A stretch of DNA of 64,000 bases from Atrina japonica (taxonomy: Eukaryota; Mollusca; Bivalvia; Pterioida; Pinnidae). The stretch covers positions 2,033,001 to 2,097,000 of the forward strand of contig BROG01000044.1 in NCBI GenBank assembly GCA_030159075.1. Direction: 5' to 3'. Shown here piece after piece: positions 10,196-62,365 of this stretch (positions are counted from its first letter, which is position 1; each line of letters begins with the position of its first letter). The position numbers and the translations under genes were made by a program. Under the pieces are notes generated by a model, which saw nothing but the letters and a program-made list of their open reading frames with translations, had not been told where the DNA came from and made no database searches.

Positions 10196-10544
10196 AAGAA
10201 AAACAATAATAATTAATAATTTCATCAATTGATGCGAAATGTCATATGTTTTGGTAATAAGTATTTTCACTTTCTTCCGGTTTCAGGTTAATCTTTCTTT
10301 GAAGCTTTATTTTTGAGAAGCAAAAGTTTGTTTTGCAATAAGTATTTAGTTGACTCCACTATGTAAGAACAAAGAAGGAAATGACGATTCAAAATTTGCT
10401 TGTAACTTATAAATATTTGCATTTTATACAAAAATAAATCGATTCATACCAAACCAATCTAGAAAGATAGTCCACAGACTTACACACAATTGTTGAAATG
10501 TTTACAAGATTTCGTTGAATATATGAACATATAAAAATCTCAGA

Positions 10545-11250
10545 TACCAAAGTATAAATCAATAGGATGTCCAGGACATAGATACAAATCCGGTAAAAAT
10601 GGACAAACACGGACCTCTGGAAACCAAGAGGTGGGATCAGGTGCCATGGAGGAGTAAGCATCCCCTGTCGACCGGTCACACCCGCCGTGAGTCCACAGTC
10701 AAGTCCAATGAAACACGTGAGGAGTGTATCCTCGTCACAATTGGTACAGACGTCTCAACAACCGCCAACGAAAAGGCAACTCAACATTTCACTTAGTGAA
10801 ACAGAGTAGTCGCAAACAAGACTACCATACCGACCATAAAATTTGCGGAACGTTGACATTAAACGCGGTTTTCGATATCCCTGTGTCAATAATTTGTCAG
10901 TGAGTAGTTTACCTCTGTATATGAAATCTTCATATGTTGTGCACGCCCTGGCATATCGGATCATTTGTGAAATATAAACTCCATATGCAGGTGAGTGAGG
11001 GATATTACTACTTAAATGTGGAAAATTTACGATGGGAAAGCCGAAAATCGTCGCGTTTATCGTATAGCTTGGTTGCTAATTTCCCGTCTGTGTTGATATT
11101 AAGTAAAATGTCTAAGTATGAAGCGTGTGTACTTGATTCTGTTGTATCTTTAATTTCTAGTTCGCTGGGATATATCGCATTGACATATGTATGAAAATTG
11201 TCATTATTAATTGACAAAACGTCGTCGATATATCTAAATGTCAAACTATT
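10545..11250 (-). mobile_element. 5'-truncated Penelope-like copy, reverse strand
   Basis: Matches the last ~700 bp of the element at 59854-62335 on the opposite strand. It starts inside the LTFRYIDDVLS motif, runs through the C terminus (stop near 10755) and covers the shared 3' tail. It has one extra T near 11043 that breaks the frame, and lacks the C-run break of the other copy. The truncated end lies only about 90 bp upstream of the signal-peptide exon of the giant chitinase. Confidence -1.
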
Positions 11251-11340: not shown

Positions 11341-11389
11341 ATGATGAAAAGATTGTTGTTGTGGTTAACAGTTGTAACAAATATTACAG
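11341..11389 (+). CDS. Exon 1: start codon and signal peptide
   Basis: Codes [16 protein letters not shown] and ends in phase 1 at a consensus donor (G|gtaag). A basic start followed by a Leu/Val/Trp-rich core is a typical signal peptide, so the protein should enter the secretory pathway. The ATG directly follows a T-rich stretch ending in ttttag, so this may be the start of the second exon of a transcript with an untranslated first exon. The second locus at 57828 starts in the same way, which supports the choice of start. The join to 11939 makes a GAT codon and keeps the frame. Confidence -1.
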
Positions 11390-14300
11390 GTAAGTCTTCA
11401 GATTTTATATTCTACAGATGAAAATCAGGTACAGATGTATCGATTATTTTATATCAGTGTCTATGTCCTACGCTCGTATGTATGACATTTACAAAGAATA
11501 ATGTGACAGTTTTCTATTAAGAGTTAACAAGAAATCAACGTAAATCGGTAAAATTAAAAAAAATATATATAGATATTCTGAAATATTAGCAAACATTTCG
11601 TAAATAATGGTATACCGTACTTGTTTGAAGTTGGTTACGCATGGAACCATTTGTATCTATAAAACACAATTTTTTTTCTCACTTCTTTTAGTTCTTGGAA
11701 GTGACTTGGAAATCACCTATTTACTTTGAAAGGGATTTTTATACCGATTTATGGTCTTTACAAATAACTTAATCCTTTAAAACAGACAAAGAAATAACAT
11801 GTCAAAAAGTGTCTTTAAGAAAATACATGCGGGACATGTATACTTTTGCTCATATAGCCTAGCTGCCTGGAGAATTAGAAATATATGGACTTCTAATTTA
11901 TTAAAATTACCATTTACGAATCTTACACATTTAAACAGATGGTCTGGAATACAAACGTGTATGTTACTTTACAAACTGGTCTCAGTATCGCACGGCACCG
12001 ATGACATTTGAAGCTGAAGATGTGGAACCATACATCTGTACGCATATCATGTACGCATTTGGAAAAGTTGCAGGAAACGGTATAGATGCATACGAATGGA
12101 ACGATCAAATCAGTGGAGGTATGTGGTATATTATTGCTTTTAGAACTAAAGCTACAGTGACAATGTCGATGGTAAAACTTTCGTTTAATGCAGTGAATAA
12201 TAAGAATACAATTAAGAATTTATTTTGATAATGTACATTATGCAAACTTACTCGGTAAAGGAATAACACAGTCAGGAATCATTTTAAAGACGAAAATTAT
12301 CATATCTACATAACTTTTGAAAACTTTATTGGTTCTTTATAGGACAATATGAACGAATTATGAACCTGAAAAATATAAATTCGGACCTGAGGGTTTCACT
12401 GGCTATTGGAGGATGGACGCACGGTACTGCCCCATTTGTGGCTTTGGTAGACGATCCAAATGACATAGACACGTTTGCTAATAATGCTGTGGCATATCTC
12501 CGTGCATATGGCTTCGACGGCTTAGACCTTGATTGGGAGTACCCAGGGAGTAATGGTAGCCCTACTGGTGACAAACAACGATTCACGCTCCTGGTGCAGG
12601 GTAAATATGAGTATGAGACTACAATTGTTTCCGAAAGAAAGTAGATTTAAATTTCACGTCGTACATGTCTCTTTAGGACAGATGTGTTGAATTTCAATAT
12701 ACTATATCAATGTATTTGCAGAAACTGAGGAGTGCATTCGATGCTGATACAACATCGACAGGGACGTTCTAGACTCTTGCTTACAGCTGCTGTTTCTGCA
12801 TCCAAGACGACCATCGATTCCGGATACGAAATCAGTCTAATTGCACAGTAAGAATTTTACATCTCGCTCATCAAGACCAAAAGCTTGAAAAAATTCCACT
12901 TAGTGTAAAACTGCCGAGAACGAGCACGTTTAACGCCTGTAAATAATATGTAATGAATTTTGATTTAAAACTGAAATCAGTGAAAAAAATATCAGCATTG
13001 TAAGTACAGTCATTTTCCTTGGTTAAGGACGTGAATGAATGAATGATGATCTTGATCCATGACTTTCCAGGTACCTGGACTTTATCAACCTAATGTCTTA
13101 TGATCTGCATGGATCTTGGGATGGCGTAACTGGACATCACAGTGCCTTGTACAGTCGCAGTGGGGAGACAGGTGGAGAGATCTGTATTTGAATCAGGTAA
13201 GGGCATATTCCCAAAATGAATGTAAATAACGTATATTGCAATGTCAATAGTGTTTATCACATGACGATAAATATTCATAGACCTTTGAAGCAAATCGAGT
13301 AGGAAACTTTCTGACCTTGACAATATATGTCATCTATTCTTCCAGGACTATGCTGTAAACTATTGGATAAACGCAGGTGCACCACCAGAGAAAAATCATT
13401 CTAGGTCTAGGACTGTATGGAAGATCGTTTACGCTGGCCAGCTCATTTGCTCACGGCCTGGGGAGCAACAACGAATGGTGCCGGAAATGCTGGAACATAT
13501 ACTGTTGAAGCTGGATTACTTGCGTATTATGAGGTAAGTTAATTGTTGGATTTCCTTCGATCATGCGCGGGTAGGTAGTAATGAATACTCATTGATCACA
13601 ATGTTGATATTTGCTGGTTTCTGTCAATCTGTTATCAATGTATAATGATAAGCTTTGGGAAATGAGGCTGTCAGTGAAGAACATTTCTCGACAATACGTT
13701 GTTTGTATTTCAGGTGTGTGATAAGATTAAAAATAATGGCTGGACGAGGGTATGGAATGACGAACATAAAGTTCCTTATGCCTATGGAGGTAATCAGTGG
13801 ATTGGCTACGACGACACGGAGAGTTTCACGGTGAAGGTCAGTTGAATACGAAAAAATTAATTTCACTTTTTCAGGGATATCTTTAATTTACTTGAAATAA
13901 ATCAGACTTAATTGGTTGTTCGATCAAAGGTGTCTGTGTTTCACTTTTGGAAAAGTATCTTAATGAAATGAGAAAGTTTCAAATTAGTATGAAAAATAAT
14001 GCTGCATTTATTTAACATTTTGCAGGCAAACTACATCAAATCCCAGGGGCTTGGCGGTGCAATGGTCTGGTCCATAGATCAGGACGACTTTGCCGGAACT
14101 TGTGGTGATGGCAATTTCCATTAATGACCGTTCTGAAAGATGCACTAAGTTCCACGAGTAGTTCAGTCTTCTTCCTCCACTCCTCTCAACACACAGCCCG
14201 TGTCTTCATCAGTGCCGCCAATGACAATTTCTCCTGTTACACCAGCTTCGGGCTACAAAACGCGTCTGTTATTTTACTAATTGGGCCACAGTATCGGACT

Positions 14301-17300
14301 GCACCAATGACATTTGTGGCAGAAAAATGTGGACCCTTTCTTGTGCACACACATCATGTATGCCTTTGGAAAAGTAGTAGGAAACGATATTGACGCATAC
14401 GAATGGAACGACAAAACCAGTGGTGGTATGTATGAACTGAAATAATTATTGTCAATGGTTTTCACTAGCCAGCTGTGCAATGCCCGACCATTTTCACATT
14501 AGACATATCTATCAGGTACGAGGATGGTATGCATTATAACGCAATTGTAAATATTTGTATTTCTTTATAGGACAATATGAACGAAATTATGAACCTGAAA
14601 AATGTAAATTCGGACCTGAGGGTTTCACTAGCTATTGGAGGATGGACGCACGGTACTGCCCCATTTGTGGCTTTGGTAGACGATCCAAATGACATAGACA
14701 CGTTTGCTAATAATGCTGTGGCATATCTCCGTGCATATGGCTTCGACGGCTTAGACCTTGATTGGGAGTACCCAGGGAGTAATGGTAGCCCTACTGGTGA
14801 CAAACAACGATTCACCGCTCCTGGTGCAGGTAAATATGAGTATGAGACTACAATTGTTCCGAAAGAAAGTAGATTTAAATTTCACGTCGTTCATGTCTCT
14901 TTAGGACAGATGTGTTGAATTTCAATATACTATATCAATGTGTATTTGCAGAAACTGAGGAGTGCATTCGATGCTGATACAACATCGACAGGACGTTCTA
15001 GACTCTTGCTTACAGCTGCTGTTTCTGCATCCAAGACGACCATCGATTCAGGATACGAAATCAGTCTAATTGCACAGTAAGAATTTTACATCTCGCTCAT
15101 CAAGACCAAAAGCTTGAACAAATTCCACTTAATGTAAAACTGCCGAGAACGAGCACGTTTAACGCCTGTAAATAATATGTAATGAATTTTGATTTAAAAC
15201 TGAAATCAGTGAAAAAAATATCAGCATTGTAAGTACAGTCATTTTCCTTGGTTAAGGACGTGAATGAATGAATGATGATCTTGATCCATGACTTTCAGGT
15301 ACCTGGACTTTATCAACCTAATGTCTTATGATCTGCATGGATCTTGGGATGGCGTAACTGGACATCACAGTGCCTTGTACAGTCGCAGTGGGGAGACAGG
15401 TGGAGATCTGTATTTGAATCAGGTAAGGGCATATTCCCAAAATGAATGTAAATAACGTATATTGCAATGTCAATAGTGTTTATCACATGACGATAAATAT
15501 TCATAGACCTTTGAAGCAAATCGAGTAGGAAACTTTCTGACCTTGACAATATATGTCATCTATTCTTCCAGGACTATGCTGTAAACTATTGGATAAACGC
15601 AGGTGCACCACCAGAGAAAAATCATTCTAGGTCTAGGACTGTATGGAAGATCGTTTACGCTGGCCAGCTCATTTGCTCACGGCCTGGGAGCAACAACGAA
15701 TGGTGCCGGAAATGCTGGAACATATACTGTTTGAAGCTGGATTACTTGCGTATTATGAGGTAAGTTAATTGTTGGATTTCCTTCGATCATGCGGTGAGTA
15801 ATGAATACTCATTGATCACAATGTTGATATTTGCTGGTTTCTGTCAATCTGTTATCAATGTATATGATAAGCTTTGGAAATGAGGCTGTCAGTGAAGAAC
15901 ATTTCTCGACAATACGTTGTTTGTATTTCAGGTGTGTGACAAGATTAAAAAATAATGGCTGGACGAGGGTATGGAATGACGAACATAAAGTTCCTTATGC
16001 CTATGGAGGTAATCAGTGGATTGGCTACGACGACACGGAGAGTTTTCACGGTGAAGGTCAGTTGAATACGAAAAAATTAATTTCACTTTTTCAGGGATAT
16101 CTTTAATTTACTTGAAATAAATCAGACTTAATTGGTTGTTCGATCAAAGGTGTCTCCTGTGTTTCACTTTTGGAAAAGTATCTTAATGAAATGAGAAAGT
16201 TTCAAATTAGTATGAAAAATAATGCTGCATTTATTAACATTTTGCAGGCAAACTACATCAAATCCAGGGGGCTTGGCGGTGCAATGGTCTGGTCCATAGA
16301 TCAGGACGACTTTGCCGGAACTTGTGGTGATGGCAATTTCCATTAATGACCGTTCTGAAAGATGCACTAAGTTCCACGAGTAGTCAGTCTTCTTCCTCCA
16401 CTCCTCTCAACACACAGCCGTGTCTTCATCAGTGCCGCCAATGACAATTTCTCCTGTTACACCAGCTTCGGGCTACAAACGCGTCTGTTATTTTACTAAT
16501 TGGGCACAGTATCGGACTGCACCCAATGACATTTGTGGCAGAAAATGTGGACCCTTTCTTGTGCACACACATCATGTATGCCTTTGGAAAAGTAGTAGGA
16601 AACGATATTGACGCATACGAATGGAACGACAAAACCAGTGGTGGTATGTATGAACTGAAATAATTATTGTCAATGGTTTTCACTAGCCAGCTGTGCAATG
16701 CCCGACCATTTTTCACATTAGACATATCTATCAGGTACGAGGATGGTATGCATTTAACGCAATTGTAAATATTTGTATTTCTTTATAGGACAATATGAAC
16801 GAATTATGAACCTGAAAAATGTAAATTCGGACCTGAGGGTTTCACTAGCTATTGGAGGATGGACGCACGGTACTGCCCCATTTGTGGCTTTGGTAGACGA
16901 TCCAAATGACATAGACACGTTTGCTAATAATGCTGTGGCATATCTCCGTGCATATGGCTTCGACGGCTTAGACCTTGATTGGGAGTACCCAGGGAGTAAT
17001 GGTAGCCCTACTGGTGACAAACAACGATTCACGCTCCTGGTGCAGGTAAATATGAGTATGAGACTACAATTGTTCCGAAAGAAAGTAGATTTAAATTTCA
17101 CGTCGTTCATGTCTCTTTAGGACAGATGTGTTGAATTTCAATATACTATATCAATGTATTTGCAGAAACTGAGGAGTGCATTCGATGCTGATACAACATC
17201 GACAGGACGTTCTAGACTCTTGCTTACAGCTGCTGTTTCTGCATCCAAGACGACCATCGATTCAGGATACGAAATCAGTCTAATTGCACAGTAAGAATTT

Positions 17301-20300
17301 TACATCTCGCTCATCAAGACCAAAAGCTTGAAAAAAAAAATTCCACTTAATGTAAAACTGCCGAGAACGAGCACGTTTAACGCCTGTAAATAATATGTAA
17401 TGAATTTTGATTTTTTAAAACTGAAATCAGTGAAAAAAATATCAGCATTGTAAGTACAGTCATTTTCCTTGGTTAAGGACGTGAATGAATGAATGATGAT
17501 CTTGATCCATGACTTTCCAGGTACCTGGACTTTTATCAACCTAATGTCTTATGATCTGCATGGATCTTGGGATGGCGTAACTGGACATCACAGTGCCTTG
17601 TACAGTCGCAGTGGGGGAGACAGGTGGAGATCTGTATTTGAATCAGGTAAGGGCATATTCCCAAAATGAATGTAAATAACGTATATTGCAATGTCAATAG
17701 TGTTTATCACATGACGATAAATATTCATAGACCTTTGAAGCAAATCGAGTAGGAAACTTTCTGACCTTGACAATATATGTCATCTATTCTTCCAGGGACT
17801 ATGCTGTAAACTATTGGATAAACGCAGGTGCACCACCAGAGAAAATCATTCTAGGTCTAGGACTGTATGGAAGATCGTTTACGCTGGCCAGCTCATTTGC
17901 TCACGGCCTGGGAGCAACAACGAATGGTGCCGGAAATGCTGGAACATATACTGTTGAAGCTGGATTACTTGCGTATTATGAGGTAAGTTAATTGTTGGAT
18001 TTCCTTCGATCATGCGGTAGTAATGAATACTCATTGATCACAATGTTGATATTTGCTGGTTTCTGTCAATCTGTTATCAATGTATATGATAAGCTTTGGA
18101 AATGAGGCTGTCAGTGAAGAACATTTCTCGACAATACGTTGTTTGTATTTCAGGTGTGTGACAAGATTAAAAATAATGGCTGGACGAGGGTATGGAATGA
18201 CGAACATAAAGTTCCTTATGCCTATGGAGGTAATCAGTGGATTGGCTACGACGACACGGAGAGTTTCACGGTGAAGGTCAGTTGAATACGAAAAAATTAA
18301 TTTCATTTGTTCAGGGAGATCTTTAATTTACTTGAAATAAATGAGACTTAATTGGTTGTTCGATCAAAGGTGTCTGTGTTTCACTTTTGGAAAAGTATCT
18401 TAATGAAATGAGAAAGTTTCAAATTAGTATGAAAAAAATAATGCTGCATTTATTAACATTTTGCAGGCAAACTACATCAAATCCCAGGGGCTTTGGCGGT
18501 GCAATGGTCTGGTCCATAGATCAGGACGACTTTGCCGGAACTTGTGGTGATGGCAATTTCCCATTAATGACCGTTCTGAAAGATGCACTAAGTTCCACGA
18601 GTAGTCAGTCTTCTTCCTCCAGTCCTCTCAACACACAGCCCGTGTCTTCATCAGTGCCGCCAATGACAATTTCTCCTGTTACACCAGCTTCGGGCTACAA
18701 ACGCGTCTGTTATTTTACTAATTGGGCACAGTATCGGACTGCACCAATGACATTTGGTGGCAGAAAATGTGGACCCTTTCTTGTGCACACACATCATGTA
18801 TGCCTTTGGAAAAGTAGTAGGAAACGATATTGACGCATACGAATGGAACGACAAAACCAGTGGTGGTATGTATGAACTGAAATAATTATTGTCAATGGTT
18901 TTCACTAGCCAGCTGTGCAATGCCCAACCATTTTCACATTAGACATATCTATCAGGTACGAGGATGGTATGCATTTAACGCAATTGTAAATATTTGTATT
19001 TCTTTATAGGACAATATGAACGAATTATGAACCTGAAAAATGTAAATTCGGACCTGAGGGTTTCACTAGCTATTGGAGGATGGACGCACGGTACTGCCCC
19101 ATTTGTGGCTTTGGTAGACGATCCAAATGACATAGACACGTTTGCTAATAATGCTGTGGCATATCTCCGTGCATATGGCTTCGACGGCTTAGACCTTGAT
19201 TGGGAGTACCCAGGGAGTAATGGTAGCCCTCCTGGTGACAAACAACGATTCACGCTCCTGGTGCAGGTAAATATGAGTATGAGACTACAATTGTTCCGAA
19301 AGAAAGTAGATTTAAAATTTCACGTCGTTCATGTCTCTTTAGGACAGATGTGTTGAATTTCAATATACTATATCAATGTATTTGCAGAAACTGAGGAGTG
19401 CATTCGATGCTGATACAACATCGACAGGACGTTCTAGACTCTTGCTTACAGCTGCTGTTTCTGCATCCAAGACGACCATCGATTCCGGATACGAAATCAG
19501 TCTAATTGCACAGTAAGAATTTTACATCTCGCTCATCAAGACCAAAAGCTTGAAAAAATTCCACTTAGTGTAAAACTGCCGAGAACGAGCACGTTTAACG
19601 CCTGTAAATAATATGTAATGGATTTTGATTTAAAACTAAAATCAGTGAAAAAAATATCAGCATTGTAAGTACAGTCATTTTCCTTGGTTAAGGACGTGAA
19701 TGAATGAATGATGATCTTGATCCATGACTTTCCAGGTACCTGGACTTTATCAACCTAATGTCTTATGATCTGCATGGATCTTGGGATGGCGTAACTGGAC
19801 ATCACAGTGCCTTGTACAGTCGCAGTGGGGAGACAGGTGGAGATCTGTATTTGAATCAGGTAAGGGCATATTCCCAAAATGAATGTAAATAAATAACGTA
19901 TATTGCAATGTCAATAGTGTTTATCACATGACGATAAATATTCATAGACCTTTGAAGCAAATCGAGTAGGAAACTTTCTGACCTTGACAATATATGTCAT
20001 CTATTCTTCCAGGACTATACTGTAAACTATTGGATAAACGCAGGTGTCACCACCAGAGAAAATCATTCTAGGTCTAGGACTGTATGGAAGATCGTTTACG
20101 CTGGCCAGCTCATTTGCTCACGGCCTGGGAGCAACAACGAATGGTGCCGGAAATGCTGGAACATATACTGTTGAAGCTGGATTACTTGCGTATTATGAGG
20201 TAAGTTAATTGTTGGATTTCCTTCGATCATGCGGTAGTAATGAATACTCATTGATCACAATGTTGATATTTGCTGGTTTCTGTCAATCTGTTATCAATGT

Positions 20301-32300: not shown

Positions 32301-35300
32301 TTACAAAATTTTTTATCTACAACAATTTTGAACCTTTTGATAGCTGTCTGTCTGAGCTTCGTAGAAATTAGTAGAAAAATATGAGAATAAGCTAAGAAGT
32401 GATATTCCTCCGAAAACAGGTGAGAAGTCTTCTGTTAGATCTCAACAACGTGGCAAGCACATTCGTGACAAGCACACTCGTGTCAAGTACATTCGTGACA
32501 AGCACATTCGCGAGAAGCGACATTATAATGAAAAAAGCATGATACAGTCTACGAAATCGGGTAAATACTGTGGATGCAAACATAATTATGATGCCAAATG
32601 AAGTATGTCCTACTTATGGCAAAACATTCAATGCGTGTTAAAGTAATAACTATTTTAAGATAATGTGTAAAAAGGTTAACAAGGTCAATATTTCTCGTCC
32701 CTGATAATGATTAACTTCAGCCCCATAAAGCTGTCATTTCAACTTTTAAACCAATTTATAATAAAATTTATGATATAAAACTGAAATTGAAAGCATAATT
32801 GAAATGTTGATTTCTATTTGGATTGTGGGACAAAAATAAAAAAATATGTGAATGTAATGTCAGAAAGCAACAAGTCCGCAGCGGCTTCTGCTGTATTACG
32901 CATGTATGACAACAATAAACTTGATCCGTTGGGGGAGACAACTCTAACTGTGATTAATCCAAAAAATGGTCATACTTACCCTCTCAAATTTATCGCCGTG
33001 AGCAACTACAATGGTTACTTGGCGTAGAGGCTATCCGGACAGTTTTATAGCTAACGTTACCTCCATCGATACCAATATTGGATGACCTTAGGGAAGCATC
33101 CAGGACAGATGATCCTGTTGTAAAACCAAAAGTTTCCCCATGTAGATAACTATCCGCTGCTCTCAAAGACTGCGTCAAATCTGAAATTGACATTCGCTTT
33201 GAGCGTGGCAGTTTTGGGGCACGCAGTCCAGGAATGGTCCGCGCAGTCAAATATGTCATTTAGAATCGATTCCAGAGGTGCATCAGTAGGATATGCCTGT
33301 TGACGTGCCGTCAAGCGTGGACGACCTGCACGTGTTCGGTCTCTGACATTACCAAATTGTTGAAATGTTCTCATGAATAGTGTTTATGTGGACATCGAAT
33401 TGCATAGCAATAGCGCGATTCAGTATACCAGCTTAGATCAGATCATTCCAACTGCGCGAAGGTGCTCATTTTCATTCAGCTTAGGTATCTGCTCTACGGT
33501 CAGTTTCATCAGAAAACAACTGTTTTTCTGCTCTCAAAGGTCAGTGTAACACTTACCAATTCAAAAATCCAAAACATTTTGGAATTTTAGATACTTGAAA
33601 TTTTAACTAAAAATCTAAAATATTAAATCAAATATCTAAAACCGTATTGATATTTTTAGATTTTTTACCAAAATCTAAAATATAAAATATCCAATTGGTT
33701 TTGGGTTTTGATATTTTGGATTTTTAGAATTTTAGGATTTCGACGTTTCAAAGTTCCAGAAACGTTTTTGATCAAAAACCTAAGTATCGAATATCCAAAA
33801 TGGTTTGGAATTTTTGAGATTTCGGATCCCAACCAAATTATAATGGCAAAACTGATTCACTGTAAAATTGATGAAACATTTACTGATAAAGTTTAATCGC
33901 GGAGGAACCGATCAATATGATCACAAATGAAACAGCTCCTCGTAGTATATTAGCAAAAGTCTACGCAACAAGCCGAAACCAATTAAAAAGCGTATAAATG
34001 GACAACTTACGTTGAAGCTTTATTATGATAAGTCAGAGCAAGGTCATCCAGAATTTAATCAAGACATATACTTTGAGCGCAAAAGTGATTCTGGATTCCC
34101 AGAAGAGTAGTTGAACGAATTGCGAAACACACATCGTGCAATCTCATGATGGCGCAAAATATCGGCGTTAACGGATTCATATTCGTCAGACTAAAACAGT
34201 GACAATATGCGAATCATCTCTGACAGGTTTAGAGGAATGCAAAATCGAACACATATCACCTCCACAAATGAAGCAAAATGTGTTGAATTGGAAACCCAAG
34301 TTCTAAAGTAAATATTATAAACATAATACCAAAGTTATAATGCTCAAGACGATATCGTTTCTGTCAATTAGACTTCATCAGTTGAGCTCCAATTTGAAAA
34401 GTATGTGTATTTTCTAAAGATAAAGTGGTATCATACAAGGCCAAAATAATATCTCTAAAAGTATAGCCGAAATCCGTCTAAGAGTAACCACTGTAAAAAA
34501 ATGACTATCTTAGCTTTAGACAATTTTCGAATTTAAATAGTGTTAACAGTGCCAAATATTACTTTAGTATAAGATGAACAGCTGGTACCGAAATACCAGG
34601 TACTAGGTTTATGTATACCCTCGGGAACTCAAACGGTCCACCAGCAGTGGCAACGACCTAGTGGTTATAAATATTATAAACATAATACCAAAGTTATAAT
34701 GCTCAAGACGATATCGTTTCTGTCAATTAGACTTCATCAGTTGAGCTCCAATTTGAAAAGTATGTGTATTTTCTAAAGATAAAGTGGTATCATACAAGGC
34801 CAAATGATATCTCTAAAAGTATAGCCGAAATCCGTCTAAGAGTAACCACTGTAAAAAAATAACTATCTTAACTTTAGACAATTTTCGAATTTAAATAGTG
34901 TTAACAGTGCCAAATATTACTTTAGTATAAGATGAACAGCTGGTACCGAAATACCAAGTACTAGGTTTATGTATACCCTCGGGGACTCAAACGGTCCACC
35001 AGCAGTGGCAACGACCTAGTGGTTATAAATATTATAAACATAATACCAAATGTAACAATTGTTCCGCAAGAAAGTGAAAAATCAAATGTGAATCCTCAAT
35101 GTGCAAAACCAAATGTGAATCCCATCCCAGATATAACAACTGACTCAAATGAAAACGTACAATTACGAAAATCAACGCGTATTTGTAAACAACAAACAAA
35201 CTGTAATACTTCATTTGTTTTTGACTAATGGATTAAGTAATTTGTTTTATTTGTAGCACAGATAGTGTACAAATTCAATTTTTAAACTCATCAACTCCTG

Positions 35301-36534
35301 AAAAACAATGGACCCTTCTGTTAATCAATGACTTAGACCAATCCAAATGTATCTTTAGGGTGAATAAGTTACCAAATGTTATACATGTTTTATTGGATGC
35401 ATTTCAAAATTTCCTGAAATTCACTTTAATTTGACATTTCAGTTCTCAACAGACATTTGATTTCAGCGTGACACTTCATGTTTGTTTATTGTTGTTTAAC
35501 GTCCCACTCAAGAATATTTCACTTATATGGAGACGTCACCATATGCCGGTGAAGGGCTTCAAATTTTGGCCTATGCTCGGCACTTACGGCCATTGAGCAG
35601 TGAGGGTTCTTTAACGTGCCGACACTTACTGTGACACGGGACCTCCAGTTTTAACTGTCTCATCCGAAAGACAGGAAACCAACCTGTCGGCAGCGGGACT
35701 CGAACTCACGACCTCACGATCCAGAGTCGAGCGCGCTACCGACTGAGCCAGGCCGGCTCTGACACTTCATGAAACATATCTATATGAACAGTAATTGTAA
35801 ATTTATATAATGATAAAGATAAAGTGAGAGGAGTGGAACAACTGCAATCCGTAACCAGATCAATACACTGAATGTTTAGAACCTTTACCTGACAGGTTGT
35901 GTGCAATTCTGTTTTGGGTTGTTTGTTTGTTTATTGTTGTTTAACGCCCCACTCAAGATATTTCACTCATATGGAGACGTCACCAAATGCCGGTAAAGGG
36001 CTTCGAATTTTGGCCTATGCTCGGCACTTACGGCCATTGAGCAGTGAGGGTGTTTTAACGTGCCGACACCTACTGTGACACGAGACCTCGGTTTTTACTG
36101 TCTCATCCGAAGGACAGGAAACAAACCTACCGCCGGCTGGACTCGAACTCACGACCTTACGATCAATAGTCGAGCGCGCTAGCAACTGAGCCAGGCCGGC
36201 TCCAATTCTGTTTTGGGAGAAATACATGTAACCATATTTAAACTGTGCATACGATAACAAAATATCGAGGACCATCAGCAAAATGGTTGCTTTGTAAGAT
36301 CAAAGGGCCGATAATTACATAAACTAAGTTACCAATTAATATGTACATGTAAGATGAATACATATTGTTTGCGGTAATACCCAATGACAAAAATCTCAAA
36401 TACAAAGTATTATATGGGAGATCATGAAGTTCATTTCGGGAAATCTCTCACTTTTATTTAACTGCAAAGACAAAAAATAGTCTTTAAATTGATTAAATGG
36501 GGATATGAACCATGGATCCAGTATTTCCTTAAAT

Positions 36535-36604
<70 letters not shown>

Positions 36605-39600
36605 TCAACTACTACAGAATGAAAAATGTTTTGAGGTTAAACTATTCGACTTAGCACTTGAGGTACAGCTTTACTACAAAGATATTTCAATTCCCCGTGA
36701 CCACACTTATATATTCTTATTCTTATATCAGATATGAAACCAGACTATCGGTTGCAGTTGTTGGGTCGGTATACCTATATTGTTTAACTGTAGGCTGAAT
36801 ACATCAAAACACGGGGTCTAGGTGGTGCAATGGTTTGGTCTATAGATCAGGATGACTTTACCGGAAGTTGTGGAGACGGCGTGTTTCCTTTATTGACTAT
36901 ACTGAAGAACTCACTGGACAGCAATGGATCTTCCAGTTTTCAACCTACCCAGACAACATCATATTCCCCAATAACCTCGAACTCTGCATCATCGACGTTG
37001 ATAAGCTCACAGTGTGGTCGTAAGTTTGGATTTTATTTGTACAATGACATGAGAATACTACGTTAACTTGTTGCTTGTTTTGTCTACATCTAAATAATAT
37101 TGGATTCGTTTGACTCTTCCCACTTAATTATGCATGTTTACTTTGAAATAGAATTAATGGTAGTTTTCCTTTCATGCCTCAGTTTTGGTTAACACCACAG
37201 AATCTCGTAATCTGTAATCGTATGGTGTATTAAACATGGTATTTTCAACGTTGCATTTTGAGGTCAAGTCTTGAAGTATTTAATATTGATGGTTAAAAAT
37301 GCAATTCCGTCTAAAGTCGATAGTTCTTATATAATTTTTAGCTAATTCCGTTTTCTTATTTGTACATTTTAGCAGTATGATAAGCTAGAATATAATGATT
37401 ACATATGTATAGTATGCAGTATATATAAATTCGTTTTCCCCGCAGCACCTGCGATCTGCGAGGAAGGAAAATTGTATGGTGACAACTGTGACATGGCAAT
37501 ATATTATCAGTGCCACTCTGGGGTATCTCATCAATACGCATGCGCAACAGGAACAGTATGGGATGTGCGAATAAACAGTTGTAACTGGGATTATCTTGTA
37601 CTGACATCCTCCTCCTTATGTGATTGTGGTCGTAAGTTTTAGCAAGAATGTGAAACATAACGTACAGAAACACTGCTACAAATTGTGTTGATGATGATGA
37701 TGGTGATAATGATAATGATTATTACTATTATTATAGCTGATAGTGTGACATTATGTAAGATTTATGTTAAGTAAACGATTTTAAAAGGTAATGTTTGTTT
37801 TCTTGATGAAAAAAGCATATTGAAATATGAACCATCACTTATATTACTTATAAGTATTCAATTTCCGTAAAATATATTTATCAGATTTTACACGTTTTTA
37901 CAGCGCCCTCTACATGTACCGATGGAACATTTTATGCTGATAACTGTGATATGAAACTTTATTACCAATGTGCACATGGGATACCGTACCCATACGAGTG
38001 TCACACGGGAACATTGTGGGATGTAACTATTAACATTTGTAACTGGGAGTCGGTGGTGCCACCACGAACGAACACGCAAAGCGGATGTATTTTGCAGTCA
38101 ACAACATCAATATCACACACCACATCAAACGTTACAAATCCAACGACGACAACACAGACGACGTCTCATAGAACAACACAGACTACTGGTTCTGGTTCAA
38201 GCTGTGGTCGTAAGCATTATTTATAAAATAAAGTCTATGAATTAGCTTGAAATTTCTGTTCAGAAAAAAAATATTTTGAAGTGGAATTAGTGTAAATTGT
38301 CTTTAATGTTTTATACAAATATACAGGAATTTATCTAATTATCAATATAAGCTGAAATATTCATTTACCCTCTTTAACCTTAGATATGTTATTGAAGAGA
38401 ATTAGATAAAACTTTATTTCTGTTCTTTCCACCATAAAACTACGTTTTCTCTACAGTATTATATAACGTTGCATTATTTCGAAAACTGCATCCTTAATCC
38501 ATGTTGTTACGCTCAAATCACCATTCATTTACAAAACAACCTAAACCTTGAAGAAAAATATATTTTAAACAGACATGACAATATGGGAGAAAACACTTTT
38601 CATATCTAAACGCATCATTGAATCATAGTAGTATTTCATTTTTGTCGAAAATACGTAAATATACCATCATTACATTCAGTTTTACACTCTTTCAATTTTA
38701 AATTCAGTATTGATACAGTAGTAAATAAAAAAAATGAATAGAAAATCAAAGAATATATAAAGTTGGTTTAACTCGGCAATTGTATCATTAGAAATAACAA
38801 TATATATACACTACTTGTTTGTATACATAACTTGCACATTTCTAGTCCACTTGTTTGTGTATCTCTTGTCTTATTAGATTTTCATTTTGTTTTCGTCAAT
38901 TAACTATATTTATACATCTCTATTCGCATTACACTATCATTTATTTTAGTCTATTAACTATATTTTATACATCTCTAGTCGTATTACATTATCATTTATT
39001 TTAATCAATAAACTATATTTTGTACATCTCTGATCGTATCGCTTTATACATTTATTGCCCTGGACCCAGATGCACAACAGGTCGTTAAATTTAACGTGAA
39101 GTTAACCAATGTTAAACCAATGGGCTAACTGTACGTTAAATTTAATGATGCGTTGTGCAACCGGGTCCTGGTTGTAGGGAGACATGAGGATTTGTTTACC
39201 CAAGGCAAGTCATATTTCCCGAGGACAAAGCCCGAGGGGAATATGAATTGCCAAGAATTAACAAATACTCATGCATCCCTACAACCAGGGCAATAAATTG
39301 TTTATTAAAGCGAAATACAGAATCAATGAAGAATGTCAAATAAGCTGCAAAAGTTTTCGCACGAGTGAGACATGACGGACGCGAGGAGAATATGACGCAC
39401 GCGAGGGAGATATGATGCATGCGAGGCAGACATGGAGTGAAGTTTCCCCTGACACGTGACGGCTCTCAACCAATCCATGACTGAGTTTTTTTAAGAGGCG
39501 TAAAAATACCAAGTCTATTCCAAGAAAATACAGATGTTAGCAAGAATTCACATTATTTTTGCCAAATAACTATTTACATTATCATTTAGTTTACCCAATT

Positions 39601-41306
39601 AACTATAATTTATGTATCTGTAGTCGCATTACATTGTCATTCATTTTAGTCAATTAACTATACTTTATACATCTGTAATCGTATTACATTATCATTTATT
39701 TTAATCAATTAACTATATTTTGTTACTTCTTTATTTCGGTCCAGTAATTTTTGTGTTCTGGTGACCTGTAGTCACTGTAAATCTTTTCACTGTTGTTTCG
39801 GTCTTTTTATACATTTATTTCTCGATTCGATAATACTTCTAGTTTTCTTTCATTGAAATAGACTGTAGCAAATTCCACAAACATATAAACTTACAAACTG
39901 GACAAAATCAGTGTATTGTAATTATAGCAACATTTAATAAACATTTATTTTATAGCGCCTGCGGTGTGTGAAGATGGGAAACTATATGGTGACAATTGTG
40001 ATATGTCTATCTATTATCAGTGTAGTTCTGGGATTTTTTACCAGTACGCATGTGCAGCCGGAACTGTATGGGATGTGAGAATAAATAACTGTAATTGGGA
40101 TTATCTTGTTTTGACATCAGCATCTCCATGTGGATGTGGTCGTAAGTATAGAGAGTAAACTTCATATCAATTAATGACTTAAAAATAAATATAATAAATA
40201 AATCTGACTGATATCAGTTTAACTTACTCGATTGTTTCTATACGTTTCGTATTACAGTCCAGTGTTTAAATTACCTCTGTGGTCGAGTGGTTCGAGCATA
40301 ACGCTTTGAAGCTAACTCGAATAATTTCAGCGCCATCTATCCACCTATCTATCCATCTATCTAGGGCTTGAAGGCAACATGTTCACCGGACTCGTCAGTT
40401 CTGAACATATTGTACAGACCAATCAGAGACGATTATCAAGTTGAGGATACTTACTGGAAAGAACCACAATTTTAAAAAGAACGTTTCTTAATGCTTTCTG
40501 CTTTTAGAAGATAAATATGACTTTAAAATTCAAATAGAAACATGATTTTTTGTTCCAGGGCACATGTTTACAAACAATATATAACTCCTCTGCTTACTTT
40601 TCATGTTAAGATAAACTAATCCCATGATGCTCTAGTATTAGTAATTTCCGGCTGACACACTGTCACAGTAAATGCATTCTGGCCTTAATGGAGCAATCAG
40701 AGATCGGCGGAATATAACGACTGATATTATTTGGGTTACTTTGAACCATGAAGTATCTCACCTGTTGTTAGTGCAGGTTCAAGATCCGCTAATTTTGTGA
40801 GAATATTTAGCAGCTTACTTGCAGAAGGCCGGTGTTCTTTTCCCGGGTACCTTGTCAATGGGATCACATCTTCGTCACGAGAAACTGGTCGCCAACATAT
40901 AGGTGTGGCTTCTTTCGGGTGAGACAAAACTGTGATCCCATGTCACAGCATGAATCGAACGTAAAGAACGTAAAAAGAACTTCACTGCATTGCACAAATC
41001 TACATTTGTGGTGTTCACCTTATGCTGGAAACATCTCCACATAAGTGAAAACAATCTTGGCGGTATGTAAAACAACAATGAAATATGATATAAATGATAT
41101 GAATGATTATGATATAAAAATAGTGCAATTTTACACAAAACATAAACTTGTGATAAAATCGTTTTAAAACAGAATATAGACATTCTGTAAATACATTCCT
41201 ATGTTTAGCGATCTCTTGGGGTGATAATCTGCTATTTATATAAAACGATAAAAATAGTTTTGCATTAATAATCAATGTTGAGACTCATTTTGTTACTCTC
41301 TCTCTA

Positions 41307-41366
<60 letters not shown>

Positions 41367-43367
41367 ACTTGTAGTTTTATTTACAATTTAGTTATCTATT
41401 ACAGCGCCATCTACATGTACCGATGGAACATTTTATGCTGACAACTGTGATATGAAACTTTATTACCAATGTGCACATGGGATACCCTATCCATACGAGT
41501 GTCACACGGGAACATTATGGGATGTATCTATTAATAGTTGTAACTGGGAGTCAGTGGTGCCACCACGAACGAACACCCAAAGTGGATGTGGTTCAAATGC
41601 TCAGCTAAGTATATCCACCCAGACTACGACGAATACAGTTACACAACAGTCAACATCCTCTACTAGAACGATTACCGTTGAAGAATCTTCTACACCGACA
41701 CAAAGTATTACTTTTTCAGGTACATCTACTCTAATTGGTGTACTTACAACTTCAAATCACAAGCCAGTGACAGACACAATGTTGCCTATGACACACTCAA
41801 CAGCAAATATAGCAGATAATTCCACATCCTCGTCATTACTAATTACAACAGTTGATGCATCAAATACACCACCCTCTACAACAGGTGTATCGAGTAACGG
41901 TGCTTCAGTAACATTGTACCCTACAACAGGTGTATCGAGTAACGGTGCTTCCATGACATCGCACCCTACAACAGGTGTATCGAGTAGCAGTGCTTCAGTA
42001 ACATCGTACCCTACAACAGGTGTATCGAGTAACGGTGCTTCCATGACATCGCACCCTACAACAGGTGTATCGAGTAACAGTGCTTCAGTAACATCGTACC
42101 CTACAACAGGTGTATCGAGTAACGGTGCTTCAGTAACATCGTACCCTACAACAGGTGTATCGAGTAACGGTGCTTCAGTAACATCGTACCCTACAACAGG
42201 TATATCGAGTAACAGTGCTTCAGTAACATCGTACCCTACAACAGGTGTATCGAGTAACAGTGCTTCCATGACATCGCACCCTACAACAGGTGTATCGAGT
42301 AACAGTGCTTCAGTAACATTGTACCCTACAACAGGTGTATCGAATAACGGTGCTTCCATGACATCGCACCCTACAACAGGTGTATCAAATAACGGTGCTT
42401 CAGTAGCATCTTACCCTACAACAGGTGTATCAAATAACGGTGCTTCCGTGACATCGTACCCTACAACAGGTGTATCGAATAACGGTGCTTCCGTGACATC
42501 GTACCCTACAACAGGTATATCAAATAACGGTGCTTCAGCAACATCGTACCCTACAACAGGTGTATCGAATGACGGTGCTTCAGTGACATCGTACCCCACT
42601 ACAGGTGTTTCAAACGATGGTACTTCCATGACTCCAGCCTCCCCGGGCACAACGCTTAATCAGGTTACTACAGTAATATCGCCAGGTTTACATGGTTCTT
42701 CAACAGAGAGACACAATACTGCACAAACATCCACCAGCAATGTCATGACATCATCTCTTACGATGACCACAACAACAGATAATGGACACACAACTTCTCT
42801 GCCAACCATGTCTTCTAGTTCATCTGTACTAAGTAGTACAACATCGACAGGACATATAGCTAAGACCACAGCAACCTCTACAACCTCCTCACCAACAACA
42901 AGTGCTTGTGGACGTAAGTAAAGATAATATTTCAATTATGACGTAGGTATGATCGAGACAGCATCTAGTCACACACACACGCATGCATGCTTGCTACAGC
43001 CACATATATTTTATTTGATGTTCTGCAAATTCATTAAATATAGTTCATATATGTTTATAATGATTTGAATATAATTATAAATGAGAACATGTATATTACT
43101 TGGTACATTTGAGCCTGTTCAACGCATGATCTTTGATATAAAAAACCAACCTACTCAGAGATAAAGTCAACAATAGGTATAGCCATGTTTATATGTATCC
43201 TTGGCCTATATACGTATTTGAATAAAAGGAAATTTCTCTTTTTTGCAGCACCAGACACATGTCATTTTCCGGCTTGGGACTCTGGAAGTGAAACTATAAT
43301 ATCGGTATCAATTATAGGACAATTGGTCTTAAGCACCGTGGTATCAATTATTACAAGGTTTGGTTAA
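11341..43367 (+). CDS. Giant nine-domain GH18 chitinase with CBM14 modules, mucin tract and C-terminal membrane anchor (spliced)
   Basis: Spliced gene predicted to hydrolyse beta-1,4 bonds of chitin outside the cell. Order: signal-peptide exon (11341-11389), first GH18 exon (11939-12118), eight repeats of an exon set coding 404 codons, a ninth domain (30099-31576 plus 36794-37019), CBM14 exons at 37446-37631, 37904-38209, 39956-40141 and 41405-42913 (the last with a mucin tract), and a terminal exon 43249-43367 ending in TAA. All introns are GT-AG and the phases agree from start to stop. Summed consensus exon lengths give 4,424 codons including stop. Each GH18 domain has [26 protein letters not shown] and [12 protein letters not shown], the expected family motifs. 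Architecture resembles arthropod multi-GH18 chitinases (CHT10 type) but with nearly identical domains. Many array copies carry 1-2 nt indels; the single-copy exons carry none. Any 5' untranslated exon is unseen. I am confident of the family; exact copy number and transcript integrity are less certain. Confidence -1.
11939..12118 (+). CDS. Exon 2: N-terminal part of GH18 domain 1
   Basis: Phase 1 to phase 1 exon of 180 nt with no frame break. It codes the first beta strand ([14 protein letters not shown]) and the strand ending [11 protein letters not shown]. It is clearly diverged from the matching part of the internal copies: SQYR for [13 protein letters not shown] for [14 protein letters not shown] for VVGND. 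The intron after it (224 bp) is longer than and different from the 145 bp intron at this place in the other units. The exon therefore lies just outside the homogenised array and marks its left edge. Confidence -1.
12343..14425 (+). CDS. GH18 array unit 1 (exons E2-E6 and fused E7/E1)
   Basis: Exons: E2 12343-12599 (LAIGGWTHG and catalytic [10 protein letters not shown]), E3 12722-12847, E4 13071-13196 ([10 protein letters not shown]), E5 13346-13533 (GLGLYGRSF), E6 13714-13836 (QWIGYDD), fused E7/E1 14026-14425. The last exon finishes domain 1 ([18 protein letters not shown]), runs through a Ser/Thr linker and starts domain 2 ([10 protein letters not shown]). Differences from the consensus: an extra G at the E2 donor, +1 in E3, +2 in E4, +2 in E5, and several 1-nt changes in the fused exon (net +3). 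As written the reading frame is broken; motif content is intact. Confidence -1.
14571..16643 (+). CDS. GH18 array unit 2
   Basis: Exons: E2 14571-14829 (two 1-nt insertions), E3 14952-15076 (intact), E4 15299-15422 (intact), E5 15572-15759 (+2), E6 15932-16056 (+2), fused E7/E1 16248-16643 (net -1). The catalytic DGLDLDWEY is present in E2. The E3 exon has a synonymous TCA serine codon shared with unit 3, where the others have TCC. The extra bases fall in runs of A, T or C, as expected for consensus errors in an unpolished repeat. The unit begins 2,228 bp after unit 1. Confidence -1.
16789..18865 (+). CDS. GH18 array unit 3
   Basis: Exons: E2 16789-17045 (intact, 257 nt), E3 17166-17290 (intact), E4 17521-17646 (+2, in T and G runs), E5 17796-17982 (+1 at its first base), E6 18154-18276 (intact), fused E7/E1 18467-18865 (+2). 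All GH18 motifs are present. The linker carries Ser-Pro (agtcct) where most units have Thr-Pro (actcct), shared only with unit 4. The intron after E6 has the variant tttgttcagggagat, also found in unit 4. These shared variants suggest units 3-4 were copied as a block. Confidence -1.
19010..21078 (+). CDS. GH18 array unit 4 (near-intact reference unit)
   Basis: Exons: E2 19010-19266, E3 19388-19512, E4 19736-19859, E5 20013-20199 (+1), E6 20371-20493, fused E7/E1 20682-21078. All but E5 have the exact consensus length (257, 125, 124, 186, 123, 397 nt), so this is the best unit for reading the structure. The six exons sum to 1,212 nt, exactly 404 codons, phase 1 in and phase 1 out. Variants: Pro-Pro in place of Pro-Thr after the catalytic motif (shared with units 5 and 8), DYTV for DYAV in E5, and DTNSGG for DKTSGG at the exon end. 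Confidence -1.
21223..23296 (+). CDS. GH18 array unit 5
   Basis: Exons: E2 21223-21479, E3 21602-21726, E4 21950-22073 (all intact), E5 22223-22412 (+4, from G, T and A insertions), E6 22585-22707 (intact), fused E7/E1 22897-23296 (+3: one C, a CT, and one T at the donor, making it gttatg). It shares with unit 4 the Pro-Pro codon pair and an intron variant (actaaaatcag) seen nowhere else, so the two are sister copies. The catalytic motif is intact. Confidence -1.
23443..25521 (+). CDS. GH18 array unit 6
   Basis: Exons: E2 23443-23701 (+2; the second inserted T falls inside the catalytic motif, so the literal reading gives DWDV instead of DWEY), E3 23822-23946 (one insertion and one deletion), E4 24174-24297 (intact, with an extra G before the donor), E5 24448-24633 (intact), E6 24807-24931 (+2), fused E7/E1 25122-25521 (+3). 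If the single T is a consensus error the catalytic Glu is present as in every other copy. This is the place where checking raw reads matters most. Confidence -1.
25668..27735 (+). CDS. GH18 array unit 7
   Basis: Exons: E2 25668-25926 (+2, a TA insertion before IGGW), E3 26047-26171, E4 26398-26521, E5 26670-26855 and E6 27029-27151 (all intact), fused E7/E1 27340-27735 (one T missing in a T run before the linker; also ACAATTTC reads ACAAATTC, Ile to Asn). The intron after E5 has an extra G next to the donor. The catalytic motif and the MSYD and WSIDQDD motifs are intact. Introns carry the ctgaaaccag variant shared by units 6-9. Confidence -1.
27882..29954 (+). CDS. GH18 array unit 8
   Basis: Exons: E2 27882-28141 (net +3 from A-run, C-run and other 1-2 nt changes), E3 28262-28387 (+1), E4 28611-28734 (intact), E5 28884-29070 (+1), E6 29245-29368 (+1), fused E7/E1 29556-29954 (+2). 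At the end of E3 the codon GCA is GAA, giving SLIEQ for SLIAQ, a change shared only with unit 9. It carries Pro-Pro after the catalytic motif like units 4 and 5. Catalytic [10 protein letters not shown] is present. Confidence -1.
30099..31576 (+). CDS. GH18 array unit 9 (exons E2-E6 of the last domain)
   Basis: Exons: E2 30099-30355 (one insertion and one deletion, so normal length), E3 30476-30600 (intact), E4 30823-30947 (+1), E5 31097-31282 and E6 31454-31576 (intact). Coding variants: Pro-His after the catalytic motif, SLIEQ (shared with unit 8), an Ala-to-Val change in E5 (HGLG preceded by FV) and Thr-to-Met in E6 (DDMESF). Identity to the array ends about 20 bp into the next intron. The domain is finished 5.2 kb downstream by the diverged exon at 36794. 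Confidence -1.
33030..33490 (-). mobile_element. Tc1/mariner transposase relic nested in the Gypsy relic
   Basis: On the reverse strand the translation gives [14 protein letters not shown] and then [20 protein letters not shown], the helix-turn-helix region of Tc1-type transposases. A weaker continuation follows ([19 protein letters not shown]). Frames are broken. No terminal inverted repeats were recognised. Confidence -1.
33560..33840. repeat. AT-rich degenerate short repeat
   Basis: Many imperfect copies of aaaatctaaaatat and its complement, with no coding sense. Probably a simple-sequence derived block. Confidence -1.
34310..35050. repeat. ~358 bp tandem duplication in the Gypsy relic
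   Basis: Two almost identical copies begin at 34310 and 34669, and a third partial start (aaatattataaacataatac) lies at 35027. The copies differ by a few bases. They interrupt the pol C-terminal coding remnant, which resumes after the third start. Confidence -1.
35481..35759 (-). mobile_element. tRNA-derived SINE, copy 1
   Basis: Read in reverse it starts gagccggcctggctcagtcg (A box) and has a B box (gagttcgagtcc), then a long tail ending ttaaacaacaataaacaaa. It is flanked by a 12 bp target-site duplication TGACACTTCATG (35469-35480 and 35760-35771), which fixes the ends. Confidence -1.
35919..36202 (-). mobile_element. tRNA-derived SINE, copy 2
   Basis: Same family and orientation as the copy 440 bp upstream. 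A 15 bp target-site duplication CAATTCTGTTTTGGG (35904-35918 and 36203-36217) flanks it, so the two are independent insertions. Confidence -1.
36537..36602. repeat. (CT)n microsatellite before the last GH18 exon
   Basis: 66 bp of CT in the intron, 190 bp upstream of the acceptor at 36793. Confidence -1.
36794..37019 (+). CDS. E7 exon closing GH18 domain 9, with Ser/Thr linker
   Basis: Codes [19 protein letters not shown] followed by [15 protein letters not shown], the C-terminal GH18 strand with the conserved Trp, then a Ser/Thr/Pro-rich linker ending in Cys-Gly. Phase 0 in, phase 1 out, 226 nt, no frame break. It is diverged from the internal E7 copies ([17 protein letters not shown] against [17 protein letters not shown]). 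Like the first GH18 exon it therefore lies outside the homogenised array. It is preceded by a 5.2 kb intron filled with transposon debris. Confidence -1.
37446..37631 (+). CDS. CBM14 (peritrophin-A) chitin-binding exon A
   Basis: One 186 nt phase 1-1 exon coding a complete chitin-binding module with the six-cysteine pattern: ICEEG, GDNCD, YYQC, YACATG, SCNW and a final CDCG. The aromatic YYQC and the WDVRINSC block are typical of the family. It should hold the enzyme on chitin fibres. The exon ends TGTGGTC|gtaag, the same Cys-Gly junction as its neighbours, so modules can be added without a frame change. It is almost the same as the exon at 39956. Confidence -1.
37904..38209 (+). CDS. CBM14 exon B with short Thr-rich tail
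   Basis: A 306 nt phase 1-1 exon. It codes a six-cysteine CBM14 module (STCTDG, ADNCD, YYQCAHG, YECHTG, NICNW, SGC) followed by about 35 residues rich in Thr and Ser, a likely O-glycosylated spacer, ending CG at the donor. The CBM part is nearly identical to that of the exon at 41405, which carries a far longer mucin tract. No frame break is seen. Confidence -1.
38210..39041. other. Intron sequence between CBM14 exons B and A', left part
   Basis: AT-rich, with loosely repeated lines such as tcgtattacattatcattta that recur at 39560-39720. No coding signal seen. Confidence -1.
39042..39310. repeat. Larger palindrome that contains the foldback element
   Basis: Left arm sequence tttattgccctgg ... 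ttgtagggagacatgag and right arm catgcatccctacaaccagg with gcaataaa are inverted copies centred near 39230. The small foldback element splits the left arm. Both lie in the intron between CBM14 exons B and A'. Confidence -1.
39058..39170. mobile_element. Small foldback element (MITE-like)
   Basis: Arms cctggacccagatgcacaac and gttgtgcaaccgggtcctgg are inverted copies, extended by ttaaatttaacgt / acgttaaattta. The spacer is about 35 bp. Confidence -1.
39956..40141 (+). CDS. CBM14 chitin-binding exon A' (duplicate of exon A)
   Basis: A 186 nt phase 1-1 exon with the same length, cysteine spacing and end as the exon at 37446 (VCEDG, GDNCD, YYQCSSG, YACAAG, NNCNW, CGCG). Differences are mainly substitutions (for example SGIFYQYAC against SGVSHQYAC). 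It reads open with clean acceptor (tatag) and donor (gtaag). Together with the next exon it is the second half of an A-B-A'-B' duplication. Confidence -1.
40270..40320 (+). mobile_element. SINE head fragment
   Basis: Sequence ctctgtggtcgagtggttcg and what follows resembles the head of the SINE at 45140, without a tail. It lies in the intron between CBM14 exons A' and B'. Confidence -1.
41297..41363. repeat. (CT)n microsatellite just before the mucin exon
   Basis: CT repeat ending 41 bp upstream of the exon at 41405; it may extend the pyrimidine-rich tract before the acceptor. Confidence -1.
41405..42913 (+). CDS. CBM14 exon B' with long mucin-like Ser/Thr repeat tract
   Basis: A 1,509 nt phase 1-1 exon, open throughout. 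The first 60 or so residues are a CBM14 module (STCTDG, ADNCD, YYQCAHG, YECHTG, NSCNW, SGCG). About 100 Ser/Thr-rich residues follow, then 17 repeats of 15 residues of the type [15 protein letters not shown], then a further 90 Ser/Thr-rich residues ending in ACG. Such tracts are usually densely O-glycosylated and act as stiff extended stalks. Here the tract would hold the catalytic and binding modules away from the C-terminal membrane anchor. Confidence -1.
41878..42642 (+). repeat. Coding 45 bp minisatellite, 17 units
   Basis: Seventeen 45 bp units in perfect register, with no indels, code the 15-residue mucin repeat. Early units read VSSNG, later ones VSNNG and the last VSNDG, so there is a gradient along the tract. 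Units ending MTSHP alternate with units ending VTSYP at the left end. The last unit is degenerate (MTPAS). Confidence -1.
43249..43367 (+). CDS. Terminal exon: C-terminal hydrophobic anchor and stop codon
   Basis: Codes 39 residues starting with [14 protein letters not shown] and continuing into a hydrophobic run, [19 protein letters not shown], then TRFG and TAA (43365-43367). A small-residue stretch (DSGS) followed by about 20 hydrophobic residues at the extreme C terminus is the pattern of a GPI-attachment signal. A single membrane span with a 3-4 residue tail is the alternative. Either way the enzyme would be tethered to the cell surface, facing outwards. The acceptor (ttttgcag) and phase match the preceding exon. 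Confidence -1.

Positions 43368-62335: not shown

Positions 62336-62365
<30 letters not shown>

Follow-up and report, generated by a model that had tools for sequence, protein, structure and literature searches.

The question raised by this locus is whether a single gene of Atrina japonica encodes a chitinase with nine fused catalytic domains, as a first-pass annotation had proposed, or whether separate genes, a decaying array or an assembly error account for what is seen. We addressed it in a stretch of 64,000 nucleotides (the window, C44:2033001-2097000), drawn from an assembly of 832 Mb in 2,347 contigs.

Gene model and domain organization

A tandem array on the plus strand (12333-31599) contains about 8.7 units of ~2.2 kb, which are 97.9-98.7% identical to unit 4. 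The consensus unit carries six exons of 257, 125, 124, 186, 123 and 397 nt, which add up to 1,212 nt (404 codons); it closes in frame, so that the gain or loss of a unit leaves the reading frame intact. Together with the unique exons at either side, the consensus exons gave an uninterrupted frame that spans 61 exons and 13,272 nt, encodes 4,423 amino acids and has a single terminal stop. The first-pass annotation had arrived at exactly this number of residues, and its statement that the exon phases close from signal peptide to stop is true on the consensus exons; closure is a property of these only, the raw assembled frame being broken. As mapped, 59 of 60 introns have GT..AG borders; the exception, between exons D3 and E3, reads GT..GG owing to an extra G inserted at the acceptor, and splice sites are retained at all 53 array exons. 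The features of the model are as follows.

11341-11389 (+), exon S: start codon and probable signal peptide (judged by eye), with a phase 1 GT donor, in frame with exon A
11939-12118 (+), exon A: opens GH18 domain 1 and is unique; over 176 columns its DNA is 81% identical to the latter half of exon G
12333-14561 (+), array unit 1 (exons B1-G1)
14562-16778 (+), array unit 2
16779-18999 (+), array unit 3
19000-21212 (+), array unit 4; B4, C4, D4, F4 and G4 have the consensus length and E4 has one extra base
20682-21078 (+), exon G4: joins the end of GH18 domain 4 to the start of domain 5 through a 33-residue linker, with the frame open before any correction
21213-23432 (+), array unit 5
23433-25659 (+), array unit 6
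25660-27874 (+), array unit 7
27875-30088 (+), array unit 8
30089-31599 (+), array unit 9, partial (exons B9-F9); the array similarity stops 23 bp past F9
31577-36793 (+), 5.2-kb intron that harbors a 358-bp tandem repeat and two SINE-like elements and precedes the last GH18 exon
36794-37019 (+), exon H: completes GH18 domain 9, adds a Ser/Thr linker and is unique; over 81 bp its DNA is 84% identical to the first part of exon G
37446-37631 (+), exon I: CBM14 module 1 (Pfam)
37904-38209 (+), exon J: CBM14 module 2 (Pfam) and Thr-rich linker
39956-40141 (+), exon K: CBM14 module 3 (Pfam)
41405-42913 (+), exon L: CBM14 module 4 (Pfam) and Ser/Thr-rich stalk with a 45-bp tandem repeat of ~16 copies (repeat finding)
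43249-43367 (+), exon M: hydrophobic tail (hydropathy), either a GPI signal or a C-terminal transmembrane segment

The encoded order is thus nine GH18 domains, four CBM14 modules, a Ser/Thr-rich stalk and a hydrophobic C-terminal tail, and all the parts named in the earlier description are present in the model. The GH18 match in Pfam (PF00704) covered profile positions 2-317 of 317, and CBM14 was matched four times. In the consensus-corrected model the catalytic DxxDxDxE motif occurred nine times, once per domain, in agreement with the proposed nine catalytic domains, and a second stretch, of 18 residues, was also found nine times, at a spacing of 404 amino acids. The conserved GH18 motifs have been described as FDGXDLDWEYP, where the Glu is the proton donor, MXYDXXG, GXXXWXXDXDD and KXXXXXGGW (PMC5827449); the counterpart of the last one in the array domain reads RVSLAIGGW, with Arg replacing Lys. 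We presume from these motifs that the nine domains are active.

The stalk comprises 441 amino acids, 47% of which are Ser or Thr (23% Thr and 24% Ser). When the whole model was scanned with 19-residue Kyte-Doolittle segments, a mean above 1.4 was reached only in the last 26 residues, encoded by exon M; this hydrophobic stretch stops three residues short of the stop codon, and a GPI signal and a transmembrane segment are equally possible. The putative signal peptide has a short hydrophobic core, its best hydropathy being 0.89 in the 19-residue scan, where it was not flagged, and 2.03 in an 11-residue scan. Exon M begins with PPDTC, and the CBM14 exons begin with PPAIC, PPSTC or PPAVC.

Several other observations concern the 3' part of the gene. 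At their CBM14 starts (37898-38088 and 41399-41589), exons J and L are 94% identical, and exons I and K are alike in protein, which suggests that a pair of CBM14 exons was probably duplicated. The 45-bp coding minisatellite of the stalk exon (41876-42608) keeps its frame and is possibly a second length-variable element of the gene. DUF4796_C gave a weak Pfam match within the stalk (41392-42918; 23.5 bits, under the cut-off of 28), which probably reflects low complexity.

Nature of the frameshifts in the array

As assembled, 22 of the 53 array exons carry a net frameshift and 27 have the consensus length; all nine units contain at least one frame-shifting exon, leaving none frame-clean. Taken at face value, this would be the picture of a decaying pseudogene, or of a partly dead gene, whose frameshifts are genuine mutations. 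We distinguished between decay and sequencing error by the kind and distribution of the changes, which were counted in pairwise alignments in preference to a MAFFT alternative (80 insertions, 11 deletions and 67 substitutions) where some bases of unit 6 were misaligned. Indels outnumber substitutions (102 events versus 52 in 19.2 kb), 86 of them are insertions (16 deletions), and 63 of these insertions repeat the adjacent base, all of which argues against decay. Exons hold 57 of the 102 indels, where 54.8% would be expected (p=0.84), and the exonic proportion was ~56% under both alignments. Furthermore, indel sites are seldom common to two units (6/96), whereas 12 of the 33 substitution sites are common to at least two (p=8e-5). 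Four of the six shared indel sites do join neighbouring units, as inherited changes would, and some of them may be real; two of the six (units 3 and 4, consensus positions 1517 and 1521) adjoin a cluster of substitutions and may be alignment artefacts.

The remainder of the window points in the same direction against decay. The unique exons of the gene (2,761 nt) were free of indels against an expected 14.9, although these exons were picked as open; and three other repeat pairs of the window with at least 94% identity together showed 40 mismatches and 3 gap openings (72 and 7 when two more pairs at 91-93% were added, the less similar pairs being gappier). The intact splice sites, with a single acceptor bearing an inserted G, also speak against a dead gene. 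On the other side, the substitutions gave no sign of constraint, with 3 synonymous and 8 nonsynonymous sites against a neutral expectation of 23% synonymous, and we do not invoke purifying selection. Likewise, the depletion of substitution sites in exons (11/33, p=0.014) was set aside as evidence, as it vanishes without the sites private to unit 9 (9/23, p=0.15). Considering the excess of insertions among the indels, and the even distribution of the indels between exons and introns, their limited sharing between units and their absence from the unique exons, we take the array to be real and its indels to be long-read errors that were left uncorrected, and regard a pseudogene as improbable. Polishing presumably failed because short reads could not be placed in the repeat.

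Evidence for one fused gene

Within exon G, the end of one domain is followed by a linker of 33 residues rich in Ser, Thr and Pro and then by the start of the next domain. The uncorrected sequence of unit 4 reads through this exon without interruption, in an ORF (20562-21086) that includes two GH18 stretches recognized by Pfam; that an exon spans the domain junction and is open without correction strongly indicates fusion. The two ends of exon G have diverged counterparts in the unique exons A and H, the pattern that a multi-domain gene requires. There are no stops between domains in the consensus model, and by inspection we saw one exon for a signal (11341) and one for a tail (43249). Judged on the sequence, a single gene encoding nine fused GH18 domains is therefore strongly indicated, and the proposal of a single fused gene gains backing from the exon G junction, the lack of interdomain stops and the closed consensus frame.

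The locus might instead consist of separate chitinase genes in tandem, or be expressed mainly as short isoforms, with transcripts that begin or finish inside the units. The consensus unit carries AATAAA in the intron between exons F and G and ATTAAA in exon F, which makes shorter transcripts possible, and its coding length, a multiple of three, means that the frame would be preserved whichever F exon is spliced to whichever G exon. However, the junction open in exon G, the domains uninterrupted by stops and the array introns of merely 120-230 bp make this explanation doubtful, and we give it little weight. Far less credible still is an artefact in which the assembler looped the single true copy of a one-domain gene, one of the outcomes that the first-pass annotation had named as refuting its proposal. 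The very high identity of the units, a sequence rich in errors and a 798-bp piece of the unit that is absent elsewhere in the assembly are what such a loop would leave; but a single-domain gene (S-A-B-C-D-E-F-H) would lack exon G altogether, the units carry distinct shared substitutions, and most errors differ from unit to unit.

Copy number and origin of the array

The single fused gene being the preferred reading, the number of its units has to be considered separately, since nine is the count in the assembly. Units 1-8 differ on average by 8.1 substitutions per 2.2 kb (0.37%). The shared substitutions define eight haplotypes in the nine units, units 6 and 7 being identical at the shared sites. 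At all 12 shared sites, one or more pairs of adjacent units carry the same variant, and at four of the sites the sharing extends to distant units; unit 8 has three sites in common with unit 3 and three with unit 4. In addition, a series of variants straddling the junction of units 3 and 4 reappears across the junction of units 4 and 5, as would be expected if unequal exchange had duplicated one unit. Based on these patterns, the array was apparently made by unequal exchange inside the gene, and the number of units is expected to differ between individuals.

A genuine multi-GH18 gene with a wrongly assembled copy number, the array being longer than most reads and for that reason mis-sized, overlaps with this explanation and differs from it in the count alone; we consider its chances only slightly short of even. 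The array looks uncorrected, units 6 and 7 have one shared-site haplotype, and the one-unit stretch duplicated across units 3, 4 and 5 could be a biological or an assembly step. Against a wrong count stand the eight distinct haplotypes and the 90 of 96 indel sites confined to one unit, which imply that the units were not copied from one consensus; an assembly error of about one unit is nevertheless conceivable. A search of the 832-Mb assembly with the 798-bp piece (G4 to B5) yielded 10 matches, every one at this locus, and no haplotig copy with a different unit number was seen in it.

If the unit number does vary, the frame-preserving unit would be an intragenic coding megasatellite, resized and homogenised by unequal exchange, and the number of active sites a fast-evolving trait in which individuals differ; to this extension we assign an even chance of being right.

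Related genes and repeats around the locus

The upstream neighbour (C44:2002116-2021848) encodes two GH18 domains and has three CBM14 exons. Its exon breaks correspond in position to those of the array gene, gaps of ~0.3-2.4 kb separate its exon matches, and it has no array; like the array gene, it has a Ser/Thr-rich stretch ahead of the CBM14 modules. A FastTree phylogeny was built from 12 rows, of which three came from the array gene, one was human and eight were stitched together from tblastn pieces. In it the array unit was sister to the second GH18 domain of this neighbour with a support of 0.91; the stitched rows derive from five of six fetched regions and cover 267-374 of the 374 columns. 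Elsewhere in the genome, GH18 exon matches indicated up to three domains per locus, which is a lower bound. This maximum belongs to C967:6267-43646 (minus strand), where CBM14 modules are interspersed with the three GH18 domains, possibly the Cht10-like gene of this genome.

Downstream of the array gene, Pfam recognized a CBM14 exon (63245-63682), and an ORF at 58258-58545 resembles, by eye, a diverged first GH18 exon; the latter had no Pfam match at E<=1 and none in the genome search. The two pieces are possibly parts of another chitinase-like gene with a retroelement between them. Taken with the two-GH18 gene, they make a cluster of chitinase genes likely on the upstream side and possible on the downstream side.

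The window also harbors mobile elements. An ORF at 60846-61907 matches reverse transcriptase (RVT_1, under its cut-off), and its GIPMGTNCAPLLA stretch is presumably that of a Penelope-like element. The end of this ORF is overlapped by one copy (61622-62352) of an inverted 732-bp repeat, 96% identical, whose other copy (10519-11248) lies directly before the start exon of the chitinase. A dispersed repeat has three copies (35479-35759, 35924-36202 and 55400-55661), the first of which includes a tRNA-Gln-like stretch (35685-35757, minus strand; ARAGORN and Rfam), and is probably a tRNA-derived SINE.

Proposed function and significance

We hold it probable, with some reserve, that the gene encodes a single secreted chain of nine GH18 domains joined by 33-residue linkers, followed by four CBM14 modules, a mucin-like stalk and a C-terminal anchor, that it arose from a two-GH18 gene by unequal exchange, and that it acts at an epithelial surface by raising local hydrolysis. 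The ancestor would have resembled the upstream neighbour, and unequal exchange between equivalent exons would have amplified the six-exon unit of 404 codons that keeps the phase. Once secreted, the chain would be retained at the cell surface by its C-terminal tail; the stalk would raise it off the membrane, the CBM14 modules would hold chitin and the nine equivalent sites would increase local hydrolysis. The sequence itself shows the domains and motifs, the frame on consensus exons, the junction exons, the haplotypes of the units and the neighbouring gene; the single transcript, the anchoring, the site of action and the dosage effect are what we infer.

The epithelial location is suggested by analogy with Ca-Chit, a chitinase of the oyster Crassostrea angulata. 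As its expression is reported to peak in the visceral mass and to be regulated by feeding (PMC4457423), a role in the gut is the best analogy, and the mantle or the gill would be further candidate sites. The main functional rival is chitin remodelling. It is suggested by OfChtIII, the best insect structure match, which has two GH18 domains described as inactive on insoluble chitin and a role tied to chitin synthesis (PMC5786006).

The earlier suggestion that many fused sites form a processive surface finds no support in the sequence and was dropped. Processivity is set by the cleft of each domain, not by the number of domains.

If this interpretation is correct, the gene would come close to doubling the largest number of GH18 domains, five, that we found reported for a single chitinase; all nine of its domains look active, and ChtII is presumed to have two active domains out of five. 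It would also offer a natural test of fused identical glycosidase domains placed before chitin-binding modules versus separate enzymes, and a case in which unequal exchange internal to a gene alters the enzyme dosage per molecule. Given the apparent frameshifts across the locus, automatic annotation would probably miss or fragment the gene, and genes of this kind may be under-reported in invertebrate genomes assembled from long reads.

Comparison with known chitinases

Among the best 60 of 114 PDB matches, the array GH18 domain scored highest against human AMCase (434.5 bits) and chitotriosidase. The match to AMCase covered residues 2-372 of 374 (E 3e-129), with 52% identity over 367 aligned residues. 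The matched chains of these human enzymes have one GH18 match each and nothing resembling an array.

In the insect group II chitinases (ChtII/Cht10), GH18 and CBM14 modules alternate along the chain. The array gene is like ChtII in that a single secreted chain holds numerous GH18 and CBM14 modules, and unlike it in that all nine GH18 domains retain the catalytic Glu and the CBM14 modules stand solely after the array. OfChtII, for instance, is described with five GH18 domains, three of them presumed inactive, and seven CBM14 modules (PMC5827449). We considered membership of this group and rejected it, as no CBM14 lies between the nine GH18 domains and, among the best 60 of 114 matches, the group II structure 5y29 scored lower (328.6 bits) than group III (371.5) and AMCase.

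The group III score is that of OfChtIII (5wup), the best-scoring insect structure among these 60. This protein (ChtIII/Cht7) is described as two active GH18 domains followed by one CBM14, with an anchor predicted near the N terminus at residues 7-29 (PMC5786006). The order of GH18 before CBM14 and the predicted membrane anchor are common to both, as far as that description goes, but nine GH18 domains, four CBM14 modules and a C-terminal hydrophobic tail place the array gene outside group III.

The closest known plan is that of Ca-Chit (chitinase 3), whose ORF of 3,288 nt is reported to encode two N-terminal tandem GH18 domains, a Thr-rich region (37% Thr, predicted to be O-glycosylated) and a predicted C-terminal membrane anchor of 23 amino acids (PMC4457423). 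The array gene has the same sequence of tandem GH18 domains, Ser/Thr-rich region and C-terminal hydrophobic segment, the last recognized here by hydropathy only. Compared by description, the two differ in the number of GH18 domains (nine versus two) and in the composition of the stalk, with less Thr and 24% Ser in the array gene; the published description, in the part that we consulted, makes no mention of CBM14, of which the array gene has four. Hence, of the plan first judged unusual, the combination of GH18, a Thr-rich region and a C-terminal anchor was already known from Ca-Chit (PMC4457423), and it is the nine copies that are new. Arthropod chitinases have been described with one to five GH18 domains (PMC2685406), and phrase searches for six to ten GH18 domains in open-licence PMC texts found no such protein, the sole match to "nine GH18 domains" being, in the matched passage, a total over seven genes together. 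On the basis of its sequence, what sets this gene apart within a known body plan would be its nine presumably active GH18 copies, apparently generated by unequal exchange.
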